Shown: in pieces, positions 21,700-29,584 of the stretch
Numbering within the stretch: the first letter of the stretch is position 1
Layout: every line of letters begins with the position of its first letter
Assembly (NCBI RefSeq): GCF_001650635.1
Contig: NZ_LWQU01000140.1
Location: 1-35,856 of the forward strand
DNA from: Magnetospirillum moscoviense
GTDB lineage: Bacteria; Pseudomonadota; Alphaproteobacteria; Rhodospirillales; Magnetospirillaceae
Reading direction: 5' to 3'
DNA: 35,856 nucleotides
Notes under the pieces: model-generated
Databases searched by the model: none
What the model saw: only the letters and a program-made list of their open reading frames with translations
What the model was told of the DNA's origin: nothing
Made by a program: the position numbers and the translations under genes

Positions 21700-22704
21700 C
21701 TAGCCTCCGATCGCCCTTTCGATGGCGGCGCGGTCCAGCCCGGTGCGGCCGATCACCACCAGATGGCCGGTGCGGACCTCATCACTTTTCCACGGCCGGT
21801 CGAACCAGCGCTCCAGCCGGGTGCCGACCGCCTGGATCACGGCGCGCGCGGGCTTGCCCTCGACCGCCAGGAAGCCCTTCAGGCGCAGGATGTCGTGGGT
21901 GGCGATGGCGTCCAGGATGCGTTCCTCCAGCGCCTCGATGTCGGCGATCGAGGCAAGCGCGATGGCGAAGCTGGTGAAATCGTCGTGGTCGTGGCCGTCC
22001 TCGGCATCGTGATGGCTGGGGCGCGCCGCCAGATCGTCCTCGGCGGCAGCGCTTAAGCCCAGCACCACCCGGGGGTCGATGGCGCTTTTGCTGGTGCGCA
22101 CCACCTTGATGCCGGCGCGCAGATCCTGCGCCACCTGCTGATGGACCTGGGCGACGGTGTCGGGATGCAGCAGGTCGGTCTTGTTCAACAGCACCAGATC
22201 GGCGCAGGCCAGCTGGTCCTCGAACACCTCTTCCAGCGGATTGTCGTGGTCGGGCTGGGCCATGGCCTCGGGGCTGTCGGCGAAGCGGCCATCGGCGACG
22301 GCGGCCGCATCGACCACGGCGATCACCCCGTCGACCGTCACCTTCGAACGGATTTCCGGCCAGTGGAAGGCCTTGACCAGCGGCTTGGGCAAAGCCAGGC
22401 CCGAGGTCTCGATCAGGATGTGGTCGGGCGGGTTGGCCCGCTCCAGCAGGGACTGGATGGTCGGCAGGAACTCGTCGGCGACGGTGCAGCACAGGCAGCC
22501 ATTGGCCAGTTCGATGATCGCGTCCTCGGCGCAGCCGGTGATGCCGCACGAGGCCAGCAACTCGCCATCGACGCCCTTGTCGCCGAACTCGTTGACGATC
22601 AGGGCGATGCGCTTGCCCTGGTTGTTTTCCATCAGGTGGCGGACCAGGGTGGTCTTGCCGGCCCCCAGGAAACCGGTGATGACGGTGGCAGGAACCTTGG
22701 ACAT
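21700..22704 (-). CDS. cobW: CobW-type G3E GTPase (cobalamin metallochaperone family)
   Basis: The 334-aa product has Walker A GFLGAGKTT at about residues 10-18, the zinc/cobalt CxCC site in GCLCC near 73-77, the SGLALPKP switch, and NKTD for guanine recognition. A histidine/acid-rich segment with HHDAEDGHDHDD lies near 240, a typical metal reservoir. The C-terminal CobW_C domain follows with the GTRLERWFDRPW region. Family members load metals with GTP hydrolysis; next to cobN the likely cargo is Co2+. The ATG at 22702-22704 overlaps the cobU stop by one base, so it is part of cobU-cobW-cobN. Confidence 0.93.
   Translation of the reverse strand: MSKVPATVITGFLGAGKTTLVRHLMENNQGKRIALIVNEFGDKGVDGELLASCGITGCAEDAIIELANGCLCCTVADEFLPTIQSLLERANPPDHILIETSGLALPKPLVKAFHWPEIRSKVTVDGVIAVVDAAAVADGRFADSPEAMAQPDHDNPLEEVFEDQLACADLVLLNKTDLLHPDTVAQVHQQVAQDLRAGIKVVRTSKSAIDPRVVLGLSAAAEDDLAARPSHHDAEDGHDHDDFTSFAIALASIADIEALEERILDAIATHDILRLKGFLAVEGKPARAVIQAVGTRLERWFDRPWKSDEVRTGHLVVIGRTGLDRAAIERAIGG
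21704..21708 (-). promoter_or_regulatory. Shine-Dalgarno that fixes the TTG start of cobN
   Basis: GGAGG on the minus strand, inside the last codons of cobW, eight bases before the TTG at 21695. No nearby in-frame ATG would keep the conserved CobN N-terminus. Confidence 0.7.
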
Positions 22705-23213
22705 CAAAGCGTATCCTTCATGATCAGCGGCAGGCCGGCGGCGACGAATACCACGCGGCGGCAGACCGAGGCGAGTTTCTGGTTGACCCGGCCCTGATGG
22801 TCGCGGAATTCGCGGGCCATCTTGTTGTCGGGCACCAGGCCCAGCCCGACCTCGGAACTGACCAGCACCACCGGCCCGGCCGGGTCGCGCAGCAATTCGG
22901 CCAGGCGGTCGGTCTGGTGCCCGACATCCAGGCCGGCATGCATCAGGTTGCTGATCCACAGGGTCAGGCAATCGACCAGGATCGGGCGCTCGGGCGACAA
23001 ATGGCGGTCCAGGCATGCCGCCAGTTCCAGCGGTTCCTCGATGGTGGTCCAGTCCGGCCCGCGCCGGTCGCGGTGGTCGCGGATACGTTCGGCCATCTCG
23101 TCGTCGAAGGCCTGGCCGGTGGCGACGTACAGCGCTGGACCACCCGCCAGCAACCCTTCCGCATAGACGCTTTTGCCCGAGCGGGCACCGCCCAGGACCA
23201 GGGTCGAGCTCAC
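22704..23213 (-). CDS. cobU: Adenosylcobinamide kinase / adenosylcobinamide-phosphate guanylyltransferase
   Basis: The 169-aa product has the P-loop GGARSGKS near residues 8-15, then ALYVATGQAFDDEM, DCLTLWISNL near 80-90 and VSSEVGLGLVP, which is the CobU/CobP signature. It phosphorylates adenosylcobinamide and attaches GMP for the nucleotide loop of B12. The start is GTG at 23211-23213, overlapping the dehydrogenase stop as GTGA. No other lower-ligand assembly genes (cobT, cobS, cobC) are visible here. Confidence 0.93.
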   Translation of the reverse strand: MSSTLVLGGARSGKSVYAEGLLAGGPALYVATGQAFDDEMAERIRDHRDRRGPDWTTIEEPLELAACLDRHLSPERPILVDCLTLWISNLMHAGLDVGHQTDRLAELLRDPAGPVVLVSSEVGLGLVPDNKMAREFRDHQGRVNQKLASVCRRVVFVAAGLPLIMKDTL

Positions 23214-24370
23214 GCCGCCGCCTCCAGGATGGCACGCACCTCGGCGGCGCCGATGGCCCCGTCCTCGCCCAGCGGCAGGCCGCCCCGTTCGCTTAAGCGG
23301 GCCGAGACCAACTGCGCCGCTTCGGCCGGAATGCCGGCGGCAATGGTGCCGGCCGGCACGCCGACGGATTCGAAGAAGGCGCGGGTCTTGGCCACCGCCT
23401 GGTCGATGCGCTGATCCTCGGACCCCTCGGTCAGGCCCCAGACCCGGGCGGCGAATTGCAGCAGCTTGGCCCGCTTGGCTTCACGGCGCACGGCCACCAC
23501 GCCCGGCCACACCGCAGCCAGCGAGCGGGCATGGTCGATGCCGTAAAGGGCGGTCAGTTCATGGCCGATCATGTGGGTCGACCAATCCTGCGGCACGCCC
23601 TGGCCGATCAGTCCGTTCAAGGCCATGGTGGCGCACCACATCAGATTGGCGCGGGCCTGATAATCGGGCGGCGTGGCCATCACCTTGGGGGCGATCTCGA
23701 CCAGGGTGGCCAGCACCGCTTCGGCCAGGCGGTCCTGCAAGGGCGCGTCGGCCGGCTGTGTCAGGTACTGTTCCAGCACATGGACGAAGGCATCGACGAT
23801 GCCGTTGCCCAATTGGCGGGGCGGCAGGGAATAGGTGGATTCCGGGTCCAGCACCGAGAAGCGCGGCATGACGGCGGGCGAGCCGAAGCCCAGCTTCTCG
23901 CCGGTTTCCTCGCGGCTGACCACCGAGAAGGCGTTCATTTCCGACCCCGTCGCCGGGAGCGTCAGCACCACGCCCAAGGGCACCGCCGATTTCAGCCGGG
24001 CGCGCTTGGCGACGATGTCCCAGCAATCGCCCTCGAAGGGGATGGCGGCGGCGATGAACTTGCAGCCATCCACCACCGAGCCGCCGCCGACGGCCAGGAT
24101 GAAATCCAGCTTCTCGGCCCGGGCCAGTTCGACCGCCTTCATCAGCGTCTCGTAGCGGGGATTGGGCTCGATGCCGGAAAATTCGACGAAGGTCAGGCCG
24201 GCCTGGCCCAGGGCGTCCACCACCTGGGCATGGATGCCGTTGGCCTTGATCGAGCCGCCGCCGAAGGCGAACAGCACGCGGGCTCCCTTGGGGATGTCGC
24301 GGCCCACTTGCGCGATCTGGCCCTTGCCGAAGATCAGCTTGACCGGGTTGTGATAGGTGAAATTGTCCAT
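23210..24370 (-). CDS. yqhD: Iron/zinc-containing alcohol dehydrogenase of the YqhD (NADPH aldehyde reductase) type
   Basis: The 386-aa product follows E. coli YqhD closely from memory: MDNFTYHNPVKLIFGKGQI at the start, then RVLFAFGGGSIK, AVGGGSVVDGCKFIAAA with the NADP-binding GGGS, and LTLPATGSEMNA. The metal ligands lie in NGIVDAFVHVLEQY (Asp and His near 193-197) and in DWSTHMIGHELTALYGIDHA (two His near 267 and 281). YqhD reduces toxic aldehydes. Its location between tsaD and cobU has no obvious pathway logic and may reflect simple cotranscription. The ATG at 24368-24370 matches the family start. Confidence 0.88.
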   Translation of the reverse strand: MDNFTYHNPVKLIFGKGQIAQVGRDIPKGARVLFAFGGGSIKANGIHAQVVDALGQAGLTFVEFSGIEPNPRYETLMKAVELARAEKLDFILAVGGGSVVDGCKFIAAAIPFEGDCWDIVAKRARLKSAVPLGVVLTLPATGSEMNAFSVVSREETGEKLGFGSPAVMPRFSVLDPESTYSLPPRQLGNGIVDAFVHVLEQYLTQPADAPLQDRLAEAVLATLVEIAPKVMATPPDYQARANLMWCATMALNGLIGQGVPQDWSTHMIGHELTALYGIDHARSLAAVWPGVVAVRREAKRAKLLQFAARVWGLTEGSEDQRIDQAVAKTRAFFESVGVPAGTIAAGIPAEAAQLVSARLSERGGLPLGEDGAIGAAEVRAILEAAA

Positions 24371-24387
24371 CGTGTCGGTCTCCGGGT

Positions 24388-26435
<2,048 letters not shown>

Positions 26436-26438
26436 GGC

Positions 26439-28319
26439 ATGGTCACGGCGGACGTGACCCCAGCCCGAGCGGCGTCTGAGCCACCCGGCACGGGTGCGGC
26501 ACGGCCAAAACGCGCGTTAGTGACTCGCCCGCGGGAAGACAGCCATGGAATCGCCCAGGCGCTGACCGAGCTGGGTTTCGCCGTCCAGGTCGAGCCGCTG
26601 CTGGAGATCCGCGCGGTCGAGGACGCCCACATCGATACCGACGGGCTGCAGGGCATCCTCGCCACCTCGGCCAACGGCATCCGCGCCTTGGCCCGCGCGC
26701 TGGCCGATCGCGACCTGCCGGTATGGGCGGTGGGCGACGCCTCGGCGCGGGCGGCGCGGGATTTGGGCTACCGCAATGTGGCCAGCGCCGGCGGCGACGT
26801 CGACAGCCTGGCCGCCCTGGTGGCCGAACGCTGCCGGCCGGAAGACGGCGCGCTTTTGCATGCCGCCGGCTCGGTCACCGCGGGCGATCTGTCGGGCCGG
26901 CTGGGCCAGGCCGGCTTCACCGTCCGCCGGGTGGTGCTGTACCGCGCCGAAACCGCCGAGCGCATCTCCGACGAGCTGGCGCAATCCCTGAAAGATGGCA
27001 CTATCGACGTCGCCTTGTTTTTCTCTCCCCGCACGGCGGCGACCTTTGCTACCTTGGTGGCGGCGGCCGGTCTGTCCGATACCACCGGGCGCATCGCCGC
27101 CTATGCCCTTAGCCAGGCGGTGGCGCGGGAATTGGCCGCCCTGCCGTGGGCGGGGGTCCATGTGGCCGCCGCTCCCACCCAAGCCGCCCTGTTGGCGGCG
27201 CTTCAGCCCACGACCGACCGGGGACCTTCCATGACCGAGACCGACGTGCCCAAGCCAGCCACGCCCGCATCCGGCGACCCGGCCAGCCCGGAACCGGAAA
27301 ATGCGGCGCCCGCCAAGGGCTCGTCGGCCTGGGCGCTGGTCCTGGCGGTGATCCTGGCCGCCCTGATCGGGGCGGCGGCGCTGACCTATGAATCGTGGAA
27401 GTCGGTGCTGGAGATGGTGGTTCCCACCGCGACCCTGGCGCCGCCGACCAATCCGGCTCCGGCCAATCCGGCCCCGGTGGCGCAGAACCCGGTTCCGGCT
27501 CCGGTGGCGCAGGCCGCCGATTCGGTGCGGGCCGAGTTGGCCGCCCTGCAGGGGCGCCTGGCCCAGTTGGAAGCCCGTCCCGCCGCCGATGCGCGCCTGG
27601 ACCAGGCCGAAGGCCAGATCAAGGCGCTGCAGGCGCAGATCCCGGCCCGTCTGGCCGCCGAGATGCAGGAGCTGGCGGCGCACGTGGCCGAGCTGAAGCG
27701 CACCAGCGCCGACGCGGCCGCCGTCTTGCGCATGACCGACCGGCTGGAGAAGGCCGAATCCCGCCTGGCCGAGCTGGAATCGAAGCGGAGCTCGGCGGTG
27801 GCGCTGCTGCTGGCGGTCGGGCAATTGCGCGAGGCGCTGGCCGCCTCGCTTCCCTATGATTCGGAACTGCGCGCGGTCAAGGCCCTGGCCGGCACCGACC
27901 AGGACATCCTGCGCGGCGTCGAGATCCTGAAGGCCCGCGCCGTCGCCGGCCTGCCGACCCGCGCCGTGCTGGTGTCGCGGTTCCACGCTTTGGCCCCGGC
28001 CATCGTCCGCGCCGACATCCTTCCGGCCGAGATGAGCTGGTGGCGCCAGACCCTGGACCGGCTGGCCACCCTGGTCATCGTGCGCCGCGAGGATGGCGAT
28101 GCGGTGGGCGAGGACAGTCCGGCCCTGGTGGCGCGCGCCACCGCGCGGCTGGGCGAGGGCGACCTGGCTGCCGCCCTGGCCGAATTGTCGCGCCTGACCG
28201 GTGGCGCCGCCACAATTGCCGCCCCCTGGCTGGCCGACGCAAGCGACCGGCTGGCCGCCGACCACGCGGTGTCCGAGATGACCGCCCATGTGGTGGCCGC
28301 CATCGGGGCCAAGCCATGA
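26439..28319 (+). CDS. hemD: Fusion of uroporphyrinogen-III synthase (HemD) with a mitofilin/Mic60-like membrane protein
   Basis: One uninterrupted frame of 626 codons. Residues about 20-258 are HemD-like (RALVTRPREDSHGIAQAL opening, ILATSANGIRALA, LLHAAGSVTAGDL, VALFFSPRTAATFA), closing hydroxymethylbilane to uroporphyrinogen III. Residues 298-318 are one membrane helix. A Pro/Ala-rich linker (about 323-350) and a coiled coil (about 353-445) follow, then a C-terminal block with EMSWWRQTLDRLATLVIVRR and VARATARLGEGDLAAALAEL, typical of alphaproteobacterial mitofilin (COG4223). I read through the junction codons (27210-27233) and found no stop. An internal ATG at 27231 (residue 265), with GGGGA 7 bases upstream, could also start a separate 362-aa mitofilin. 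In relatives these are usually neighbouring genes, as far as I recall. Confidence 0.85.
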   Translation: MVTADVTPARAASEPPGTGAARPKRALVTRPREDSHGIAQALTELGFAVQVEPLLEIRAVEDAHIDTDGLQGILATSANGIRALARALADRDLPVWAVGDASARAARDLGYRNVASAGGDVDSLAALVAERCRPEDGALLHAAGSVTAGDLSGRLGQAGFTVRRVVLYRAETAERISDELAQSLKDGTIDVALFFSPRTAATFATLVAAAGLSDTTGRIAAYALSQAVARELAALPWAGVHVAAAPTQAALLAALQPTTDRGPSMTETDVPKPATPASGDPASPEPENAAPAKGSSAWALVLAVILAALIGAAALTYESWKSVLEMVVPTATLAPPTNPAPANPAPVAQNPVPAPVAQAADSVRAELAALQGRLAQLEARPAADARLDQAEGQIKALQAQIPARLAAEMQELAAHVAELKRTSADAAAVLRMTDRLEKAESRLAELESKRSSAVALLLAVGQLREALAASLPYDSELRAVKALAGTDQDILRGVEILKARAVAGLPTRAVLVSRFHALAPAIVRADILPAEMSWWRQTLDRLATLVIVRREDGDAVGEDSPALVARATARLGEGDLAAALAELSRLTGGAATIAAPWLADASDRLAADHAVSEMTAHVVAAIGAKP

Positions 28320-29584
28320 TCCGCCGCCTGCTGACCTTCGCCGTGCTGGCCGGGCTCTTGGTCGCCGCCACGGTATGGCTGGCCGACCGGCCCGGTTCGG
28401 TGACCCTTCGCTGGGAAGGCTGGCGGGTCGATACCACCGTCCCGGTGCTGGTGCTGGCCATGCTGGCCCTGATGATCGCCGTCAACCTGCTGCTGCGCCT
28501 GGCCGGCGCTTTGGTGGGCGGGCCGGGACGCTTTTTGGCCGGCCGCCGGGCCAAGCGCACCCAGGCCGGCTATCGGGCGCTGTCCGACGGCATGGCCGCC
28601 CTGGCCGCCGGCGATTCGCGCCAGGCCCGCAAATTGGCCACGCGGGCCGACCGCCTGCTGGCCGACAGCTCGCTGACCGCCTTGTTGTCGGCGCAGGTGC
28701 ACAGCGGCGCCGATGCCGAACGCCATTACCAGCGGCTGGCCGAACGCCCGGAAACCGCCGTGCTGGGTCTCAAGGGCCTGACCGAAATCGCGATCAAGCA
28801 GGGCGACAAGGCCAAGGCGCTGGAACTGGCCGCGCGGGCCTGGTCGCTGGGCGGTACCACCGACGGGCTGGCCGCCACCTTGTTCGACCTGCAGGCCGGC
28901 GCCGGCCAATGGATCGAGGCCGACGCCACCCTGGCCGAGGCCAAGCGCCGCAAGCTGCTGTCGGGCGCCGATCTGTTGCACCGTCAGGCCCTGGTGGCCC
29001 TGGCGCGCGCCGATCAGGCCGAACGCGACGGCAATGCCGCCGCCGCCCTGGACTTCGCCCAGGCCGCGCACCGCGCCGATCCGATCCTGGTGCCGGCGGC
29101 GGTCAAGGCCGCCGCCGCCCTGCATCGCGCCGGCAAGACCCGCAAGGCGGAATCGGTGCTGGCGGCGACATGGGAAGCCTTGGCCCACCCCGAACTGATC
29201 GAGGCGGCCCTGACCCTGGCGCCGATGGAAAGCCCGCTCGATCGCGTCAAACGGGTCGAGAAGCTGGTGCGCCTGAACCCTGACAGCGCCTGCGGCCATG
29301 CCGCCCTGGCCGAGGTCGCCCTGGCCGCCAAATTGTGGGGTCAGGCCCGCACCCATCTGGAAAAGGCCGTGGAGTTGCGGCCCAGCGCCGGGCTTTACAT
29401 CCTGCTGGCCCGGCTGGAGCGCGAGGAAAAGGGCGACGAAACCGCCGCCCGCGACTGGCTGGTGAAGGCGGCGGGTGCCGGGGCCGAGCCGGCCTGGACC
29501 TGCCAGGTCTGCGCCAAACCGGCCGATTCGTGGGCAATCGCCTGCCCGGCCTGCGGCGCGGTGGATTCGCTGGTCTGGCGGTGA
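28316..29584 (+). CDS. hemY: HemY-like TPR membrane protein with a C-terminal zinc ribbon
   Basis: The 422-aa product has two membrane helices within the first 65 residues (LLTFAVLAGLLVAATVWLA and VPVLVLAMLALMIAVNLLL), a basic loop GRFLAGRRAKRTQ, then TPR-type helices over most of the length (QGDKAKALELAARAWSLGG; WGQARTHLEKAVELRPSAGL). It ends with paired CxxC motifs at Cys396/399 and Cys410/413, a rubredoxin-like ribbon. HemY of E. coli has the same front but, as I recall, no ribbon. The ribbon recalls LapB. The function in late heme synthesis is not established. The ATG overlaps the previous stop (ATGA), so it is coupled to the hemD-mitofilin gene. Confidence 0.87.
   Translation: MIRRLLTFAVLAGLLVAATVWLADRPGSVTLRWEGWRVDTTVPVLVLAMLALMIAVNLLLRLAGALVGGPGRFLAGRRAKRTQAGYRALSDGMAALAAGDSRQARKLATRADRLLADSSLTALLSAQVHSGADAERHYQRLAERPETAVLGLKGLTEIAIKQGDKAKALELAARAWSLGGTTDGLAATLFDLQAGAGQWIEADATLAEAKRRKLLSGADLLHRQALVALARADQAERDGNAAAALDFAQAAHRADPILVPAAVKAAAALHRAGKTRKAESVLAATWEALAHPELIEAALTLAPMESPLDRVKRVEKLVRLNPDSACGHAALAEVALAAKLWGQARTHLEKAVELRPSAGLYILLARLEREEKGDETAARDWLVKAAGAGAEPAWTCQVCAKPADSWAIACPACGAVDSLVWR

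Follow-up and report, generated by a model that had tools for sequence, protein, structure and literature searches.

In the window analysed here, a stretch of 35,856 nucleotides from Magnetospirillum moscoviense, hemD and mic60 lie in a single open frame, and the question that this raises is whether the two genes make one protein or two, and what, if anything, their joining is for. The frame (26439-28319, plus strand) runs for 626 codons with no stop across the hemD/mic60 junction, as a preliminary description of this DNA had read it. Its full product of 626 amino acids has a computed mass of 64.4 kDa, and not the 63 kDa first given; the estimate of about 37 kDa for a product of the internal start at 27231 agrees with the 37.4 kDa we compute. 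We consider it probable that hemD and mic60 are coupled genes that by drift come to share a frame and lose it again, and that this locus makes both a tethered HemD-Mic60 protein and a free, internally started Mic60.

The gene order in the window is hemC, hemD-mic60, hemY. The hemC gene, encoding porphobilinogen deaminase, lies directly upstream on the plus strand (25494-26435, scored as 25491-26432; Porphobil_deam E 1.6e-79, Porphobil_deamC E 2.6e-18), and inspection of its ORF places the start at the ATG at 25494. Downstream, hemY (28316-29584, plus strand; HemY_N E 7.1e-24, TIGR00540 116 bits, below the cut-off of 142) begins with an ATG that overlaps the TGA of the fusion (ATGA, 28316-28319), and coupling like that proposed between hemD and mic60 may exist here too. 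The tsaD gene is divergent (24388-25443, minus strand), and the ORFs beside it (21700-24658, minus strand) encode what we take, by eye, to be proteins resembling an iron-type alcohol dehydrogenase, a CobU-like and a CobW/P47K-like protein. The available part of one publication describes an alphaproteobacterial operon hemC-hemD-mitofilin(IMMP)-hemY, placed head to head with an operon containing tsaD, and regards its mitofilin-type protein as a HemX homologue that has diverged (PMC7641849). With the same order and the same divergent tsaD, the window confirms the earlier placing of a mitofilin homologue within the heme operon. In the portion available, the published operon differs from the window in that its genes are described as separate, whereas in the window a single frame holds hemD and mic60, and in having GpsA-YciI-EVE genes at the place of the alcohol dehydrogenase, CobU-like and CobW-like ORFs. 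Within the accessible text of the open-licence PMC literature, this operon was found and no description of a HemD-mitofilin fusion. The operon is a known one, and the fusion a variant of it that recurs.

The first part of the frame encodes a uroporphyrinogen-III synthase domain (26550-27194, plus strand). Pfam HEM4 (PF02602) matches residues 38-252 with E 1.1e-35 (2.1e-36 genome-wide) and 123 bits against a cut-off of 27.5, and the match spans profile positions 3-230 of 231, a full-length domain. The NCBIfam HemD models all score below their cut-offs (best NF006621, E 1.9e-35, 122.5 bits against 223); these models represent narrow subgroups, so they limit the exact naming and leave the HEM4 assignment unaffected. 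When the predicted model is compared to the PDB with Foldseek, HemD structures rank first (4es6, E 5.8e-11, TM 0.69 by target), and the solved HemD structures 3re1 and 3mw8 are matched as well. A search of the genome with PF02602 yields one match, so that HemD is encoded only within the fused frame; being the only HEM4 gene found, the HemD of the fusion is presumably active. Across the genus, 12 of 13 genomes have exactly one HEM4 match, including eight of the nine in which the genes are fused. Contig C2 of G010 carries two HemD genes (317610-318251 and 1234146-1234811; L051), one fused and one separate with a mic60 of its own; identity of the second pair to the window's is 50% for HemD and 41% for Mic60. 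Fused relatives compared in five pairs, which overlap, give dN/dS values of 0.22-0.29 for HemD and 0.13-0.46 for Mic60, pointing to purifying selection on both domains alike.

The second part of the frame is of the mitofilin/Mic60 type, and the in-frame joining of HemD to such a protein, claimed at the outset, is borne out by HEM4 and Mitofilin matches that both exceed their Pfam cut-offs. The mitofilin C-terminal domain (27738-28289, plus strand; PF09731 E 2.9e-14, over the cut-off) corresponds to a match over residues 434-617 with E 1.2e-13 and 51.3 bits against a cut-off of 27.4, which covers profile positions 421-612 of 614, i.e. the C-terminal part only. Genome-wide, the window's own protein is the one Mitofilin match over the cut-off. 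A sequence profile of our alignment A1 matches the Mic60 construct 7pv1 (E 4.3e-08, profile positions 552-623), and a Mic60 structure is absent from the best 50 rows of the Foldseek search of the PDB.

In the AlphaFold2 model (mean pLDDT 76, pTM 0.42, from a 14-row alignment) the HemD domain is confident. It is followed by the junction (27210-27323, plus strand, residues 258-295), which contains the internal start, has pLDDT below 50, varies in alignment A1 and is probably disordered. Next come a hydrophobic helix that probably spans the membrane (27327-27383, plus strand, residues 297-315; 19-residue hydropathy of 2.61 near here), a low-confidence linker, long helices that probably form a coiled coil (27507-27842, plus strand, residues 357-468) and a helical, mostly confident C-terminus. 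Hydropathy and the model thus predict the order by which Mic60 is recognised, a membrane helix and then a coiled coil, and together with PF09731 they uphold the helix, coiled coil and mitofilin block first noticed. With Mic60/mitofilin (PF09731) the protein has in common the membrane helix, the helical middle and the C-terminal mitofilin domain; unlike it, the protein has a complete enzyme domain before the membrane helix. In beta- and gammaproteobacteria there are HemD-HemX fusions, which likewise join HemD to a single-pass membrane coiled-coil protein beside hemY; the difference is that the membrane part in the window scores with Mitofilin. No HemX family appears among the Pfam and NCBIfam matches with E values up to 1, a search in which HMMER filters can drop weak matches, and a HemX identity of the membrane part is unsupported at the level of these profiles.

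The same joining is found in most members of the genus. Reading the junctions from the DNA itself, and not from apparent open-frame length, we find hemD and mic60 fused in nine of 13 genomes (G000-G003 and G008-G012). The other four keep the genes apart, G005 by an in-frame TAA, G006 by an in-frame TAG, and G004 and G007 by an ATGA overlap. G009, the nearest relative, shares 71% identity with the window's protein over residues 7-626; its frame stays open from HemD through the whole of Mic60 and includes the corresponding ATG, and the one TGA listed there precedes the HemD domain. In a quick tree the fused rows of the genus form about three groups, interleaved with unfused ones, and the order of these groups is poorly supported. 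Outside the genus, G043 and G051 look fused by open-frame length, and the DNA shows stops in both.

Comparison of the junctions indicates how little separates the two states. The unfused G007 and G004 read CGG GGA TAT (T/C)CA TGA CC, in which the TGA stop overlaps the mic60 ATG, and the window reads CGG GGA CCT TCC ATG ACC, which is the same pattern with one base more between GGA and ATG and so comes to be in frame. At the same place where the unfused G005 has CGGGGATAATCCATG, the fused G011 has CGGGAAGAACCGATG; around the junction proper these read CGG GGA TAA TCC ATG ACC and CGG GAA GAA CCG ATG AGC, respectively. Fused and separate states are therefore only a few base changes apart. Between fused relatives, junction length differs by 30 bases in one pair (L001/L003) and by 6 in another (L009/L011), both multiples of three.

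How often the two parts are joined beyond the genus, a count proposed in the preliminary description, depends on where one looks. In other genera of the family, none was fused in the 16 of 24 genomes that were read, with 11 separate and five having no mic60 in the roughly 1.5 kb behind hemD; in other families of the order, seven were fused in the 19 of 24 genomes read. Class-wide, 114 genomes were searched, 96 had a match, and 61 loci with both parts listed on one contig were read; among the matches listed, 17 of these 61 pairs are fused and 44 are separate, each of the 17 fusions bearing a different family code. Loci L001-L131 comprise 48 fused, 65 separate, 17 without mic60 behind hemD and one without hemD, the stretches of the 17 ranging from 383 bases (L110, which is uninformative) to 5,090. 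Merging copies identical in the first 600 HemD bases leaves 90 distinct pairs, 38 of them fused and 52 separate, in a sample that is not neutral: of the 434 confirmed hits obtained with an alignment of fused proteins as query, the best 80 make up the named loci (32 fused, 36 separate, and 12 with no mic60 in the stretch covered, the last including L110 with its 383 bases), and 20 further regions were partly chosen for looking fused. At L022, L025, L028, L029 and L031, and at some named loci, L107 (Telmatospirillum siberiense) among them, no mic60 was seen behind hemD in the stretches searched; a HemY-like start follows hemD directly at L022 and L025, judged by eye, and in each of the five genomes of L022-L031 a mic60-like match lies on a different contig.

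On a quick tree built for the distinct pairs from the HemD and Mic60 domains, with the junction excluded, at least 12 changes of state are required, compared to a mean of 29 when states are shuffled, and the starred branches alone force at least four. The tree is silent on direction, that is, on gains versus losses of the fusion. Fused and separate states appear, on this reading of the sequences, to have changed repeatedly among alphaproteobacteria.

What becomes of the mic60 start when its gene is joined to hemD bears most directly on the number of products. That one gene might give two products was the part of the preliminary description best supported by our analysis: the start signals are kept and the mRNA is open at the start, and from these signals expression of both products is inferred. 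The internal ATG at 27231, residue 265, is present and opens a Mic60 frame (27231-28319, plus strand) of 362 amino acids; it is a plausible start, with a Shine-Dalgarno-like GGGGA (27220-27224, plus strand) 6 nt before it. The upstream stretch would form a duplex of -5.7 kcal/mol with an assumed 16S tail, which may differ from the host's own. The internal ATGs of the genus fusions correspond to the mic60 starts of the unfused relatives, and in the eight fused genomes besides the window's the corresponding ATG is likewise in frame.

We counted an ATG within 30 codons after HemD as having a Shine-Dalgarno-like stretch if its duplex with the same tail reached -4 kcal/mol or lower. In the genus this combination is present in nine of nine fusions (codon-shuffled mean 2.2, highest 5 in 300 shuffles), which, as these fall into about three groups, are not nine independent cases. 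At -5 kcal/mol it is present in seven of nine (shuffled mean 1.65, highest 4). The ATG alone is a less telling signal: it is found in all nine against a shuffled mean of 4.9, and nine was reached in one of two sets of 300 shuffles. Duplex energies at the junction ATGs of the genus range from -4.3 to -7.6, compared to a median of -2.1 for 38 other in-frame ATGs (Mann-Whitney p 0.0018), a p value that is a guide only, since the rows share ancestry and each junction value was picked as the best within 30 codons, a choice that favours the junction over the control ATGs. In each of the nine genus fusions, the 40 bases of mRNA around the junction ATG fold more weakly than 85-99% of windows along that ORF; their openness has a mean percentile of 0.90 against the fusions' own linkers (p 0.002) and of 0.77 against shuffles of the same bases (p 0.02), the latter being weak in three of the nine (L004 0.14, L009 0.51, L011 0.67). 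For 14 fused loci outside the genus, the corresponding means are 0.75 and 0.57. When all distinct fused loci are taken, an ATG with a Shine-Dalgarno-like stretch is present in 31 of 55 (shuffled mean 10.4, highest 20 in 500 shuffles). The signal loses strength beyond the genus, where 14 of 29 fusions carry this combination (shuffled mean 5.0). A dual start is well supported, if unproven, for this locus, which probably makes the second product.

These observations are best accommodated by the following model. The genes hemC, hemD, mic60 and hemY would form one operon, in which the hemD-mic60 junction is translationally coupled, ribosomes that end hemD beginning mic60 at an overlapping or nearby ATG. 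In many relatives mic60 begins where hemD stops or shortly after it, the two either overlapping as ATGA or being parted by an in-frame stop with the ATG a few codons farther on. At such a junction a point change or small indel can place both genes in one open frame, and with the stop lost or the frame shifted, read-through would give HemD-Mic60 (64 kDa). The old ATG at 27231, with its GGGGA, would probably still be used to give free Mic60 (37 kDa) from the same mRNA. In the long form, the Mic60 helix would anchor a cytoplasmic HemD at the inner membrane, and the coiled coil and mitofilin domain would presumably be periplasmic, a topology that we assume by analogy with mitochondrial Mic60. The tether to the inner membrane proposed in the preliminary description stands to that extent: the hydrophobic helix between the domains implies one, if the long product is made, and the side of the membrane on which each part lies is borrowed from Mic60. 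The coupling, the making of both products and the topology are what we infer for this locus. Between the domains the model is of low confidence and the chain probably flexible, so that fusion may be close to neutral, which fits the repeated changes of state. Tethering would be harmless or mildly useful and not the reason for the fusion.

It is also conceivable, though rather unlikely, that the fusion is obligate, only the 64 kDa HemD-Mic60 being made and the internal ATG being a relic. Some lineages do look like obligate fusions, as no ATG occurs within the first 30 codons in 14 of 55 fused loci, and an ATG with a Shine-Dalgarno-like stretch is missing from 24 of the 55; in the set of 38, 15 lack this combination, four of them having such a stretch before a GTG or TTG instead, and the linkers of L094 and L100 have neither ATG, GTG nor TTG. 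Since such start-less fused lineages exist, both functions can probably be provided by the fusion protein. Against an obligate fusion in the genus, the ATG and its purine-rich stretch are kept in all nine fusions despite a junction that varies in sequence and length, and the mRNA is locally open precisely there. Another reading, which we think unlikely, would give the nested in-frame starts a regulatory meaning: the ratio of HemD-Mic60 to Mic60 would set the share of the tetrapyrrole branch enzyme that sits at Mic60 assemblies of the inner membrane, and alphaproteobacteria would have toggled this tether many times through small changes at the hemD stop.

An adaptive scaffold, in which the fusion would place uroporphyrinogen-III synthase at curved membrane beside HemY and couple tetrapyrrole flow to membrane shaping, seems improbable to us. 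The recurrence of the fusion would suit it, as would the operon shared with hemY in the accessible part of PMC7641849. According to the portion of a review available to us, alphaproteobacterial Mic60 deforms membranes in vitro, and its deletion slows growth where intracytoplasmic membranes are needed (PMC12136173). Yet in relatives within the genus a stop codon or an ATGA overlap parts the two genes, and the four genus members with Mms6 matches, two of them over the family's cut-off, are split between fused (G000, G009) and unfused (G006, G007). With states that alternate in one genus by a stop or a frame shift, the earlier idea of the fusion as a specific adaptation finds no support, and a link between fusion and magnetosomes, considered for the same four genomes, was dropped. 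That an error of assembly or sequencing removed a stop or shifted the frame, a concern in a draft genome of 207 contigs, is scarcely credible and was rejected, with nine of 13 genus genomes fused, among them the 71%-identical nearest relative and seven more that have the corresponding ATG in frame, and with fusions also in the single-contig genomes G083 and G114 of the class-wide sample.

A second mitofilin-like/HemY-like pair is found on contig C175 of the same genome (L134:4937-5980 and L134:5984-7327), close to Mms6 (264.6 bits in NCBIfam against a cut-off of 200) and MamC (134.6 bits against 100). From gene order and from size (347-349 and 447 aa), the pair fits mms36 and mms48 of the mms6 operon, two genes with effects on how large and how numerous magnetosomes are (PMC8547445). 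Between the Mic60-like member and the window's Mic60 the match has E 3.8e-18; with Pfam Mitofilin that member scores 16.7 bits, below the cut-off of 27.4, and the HemY-like member matches the window's HemY at about E 1e-36. Alignment of ten Mms36-like with ten Mic60 sequences by hhalign gives a probability of 99.9% (E 6e-35, 312 columns); L202 (G003), without a match at 1e-4, is not among the ten. A branch with SH-aLRT 99 sets the Mms36-like proteins apart in a quick tree. An Mms6-like match beside such a pair also occurs in loci of G007, G034, G018, G029, G006, G013 and G039. By these profile, tree and E-value matches, two magnetosome-size proteins appear to be a duplicated Mic60 and HemY, and the sequences suggest that Mms36 and Mms48 arose by duplication of mic60-hemY. 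In the part of the mms36/mms48 literature covered by a word search, neither 'mitofilin' nor 'HemY' was found. This paralogy may outrank the fusion in importance.

For the hemD-mic60 pair itself, a fusion that recurs, and in which the second start is often kept, shows that being physically linked is tolerated by both products and may be of use to them. It also calls for caution in annotation, as one predicted protein at hemD-mic60 may be two. A single genus, with its fused and unfused relatives, offers natural material for testing what it means to have heme synthesis tethered to a crista-type protein.
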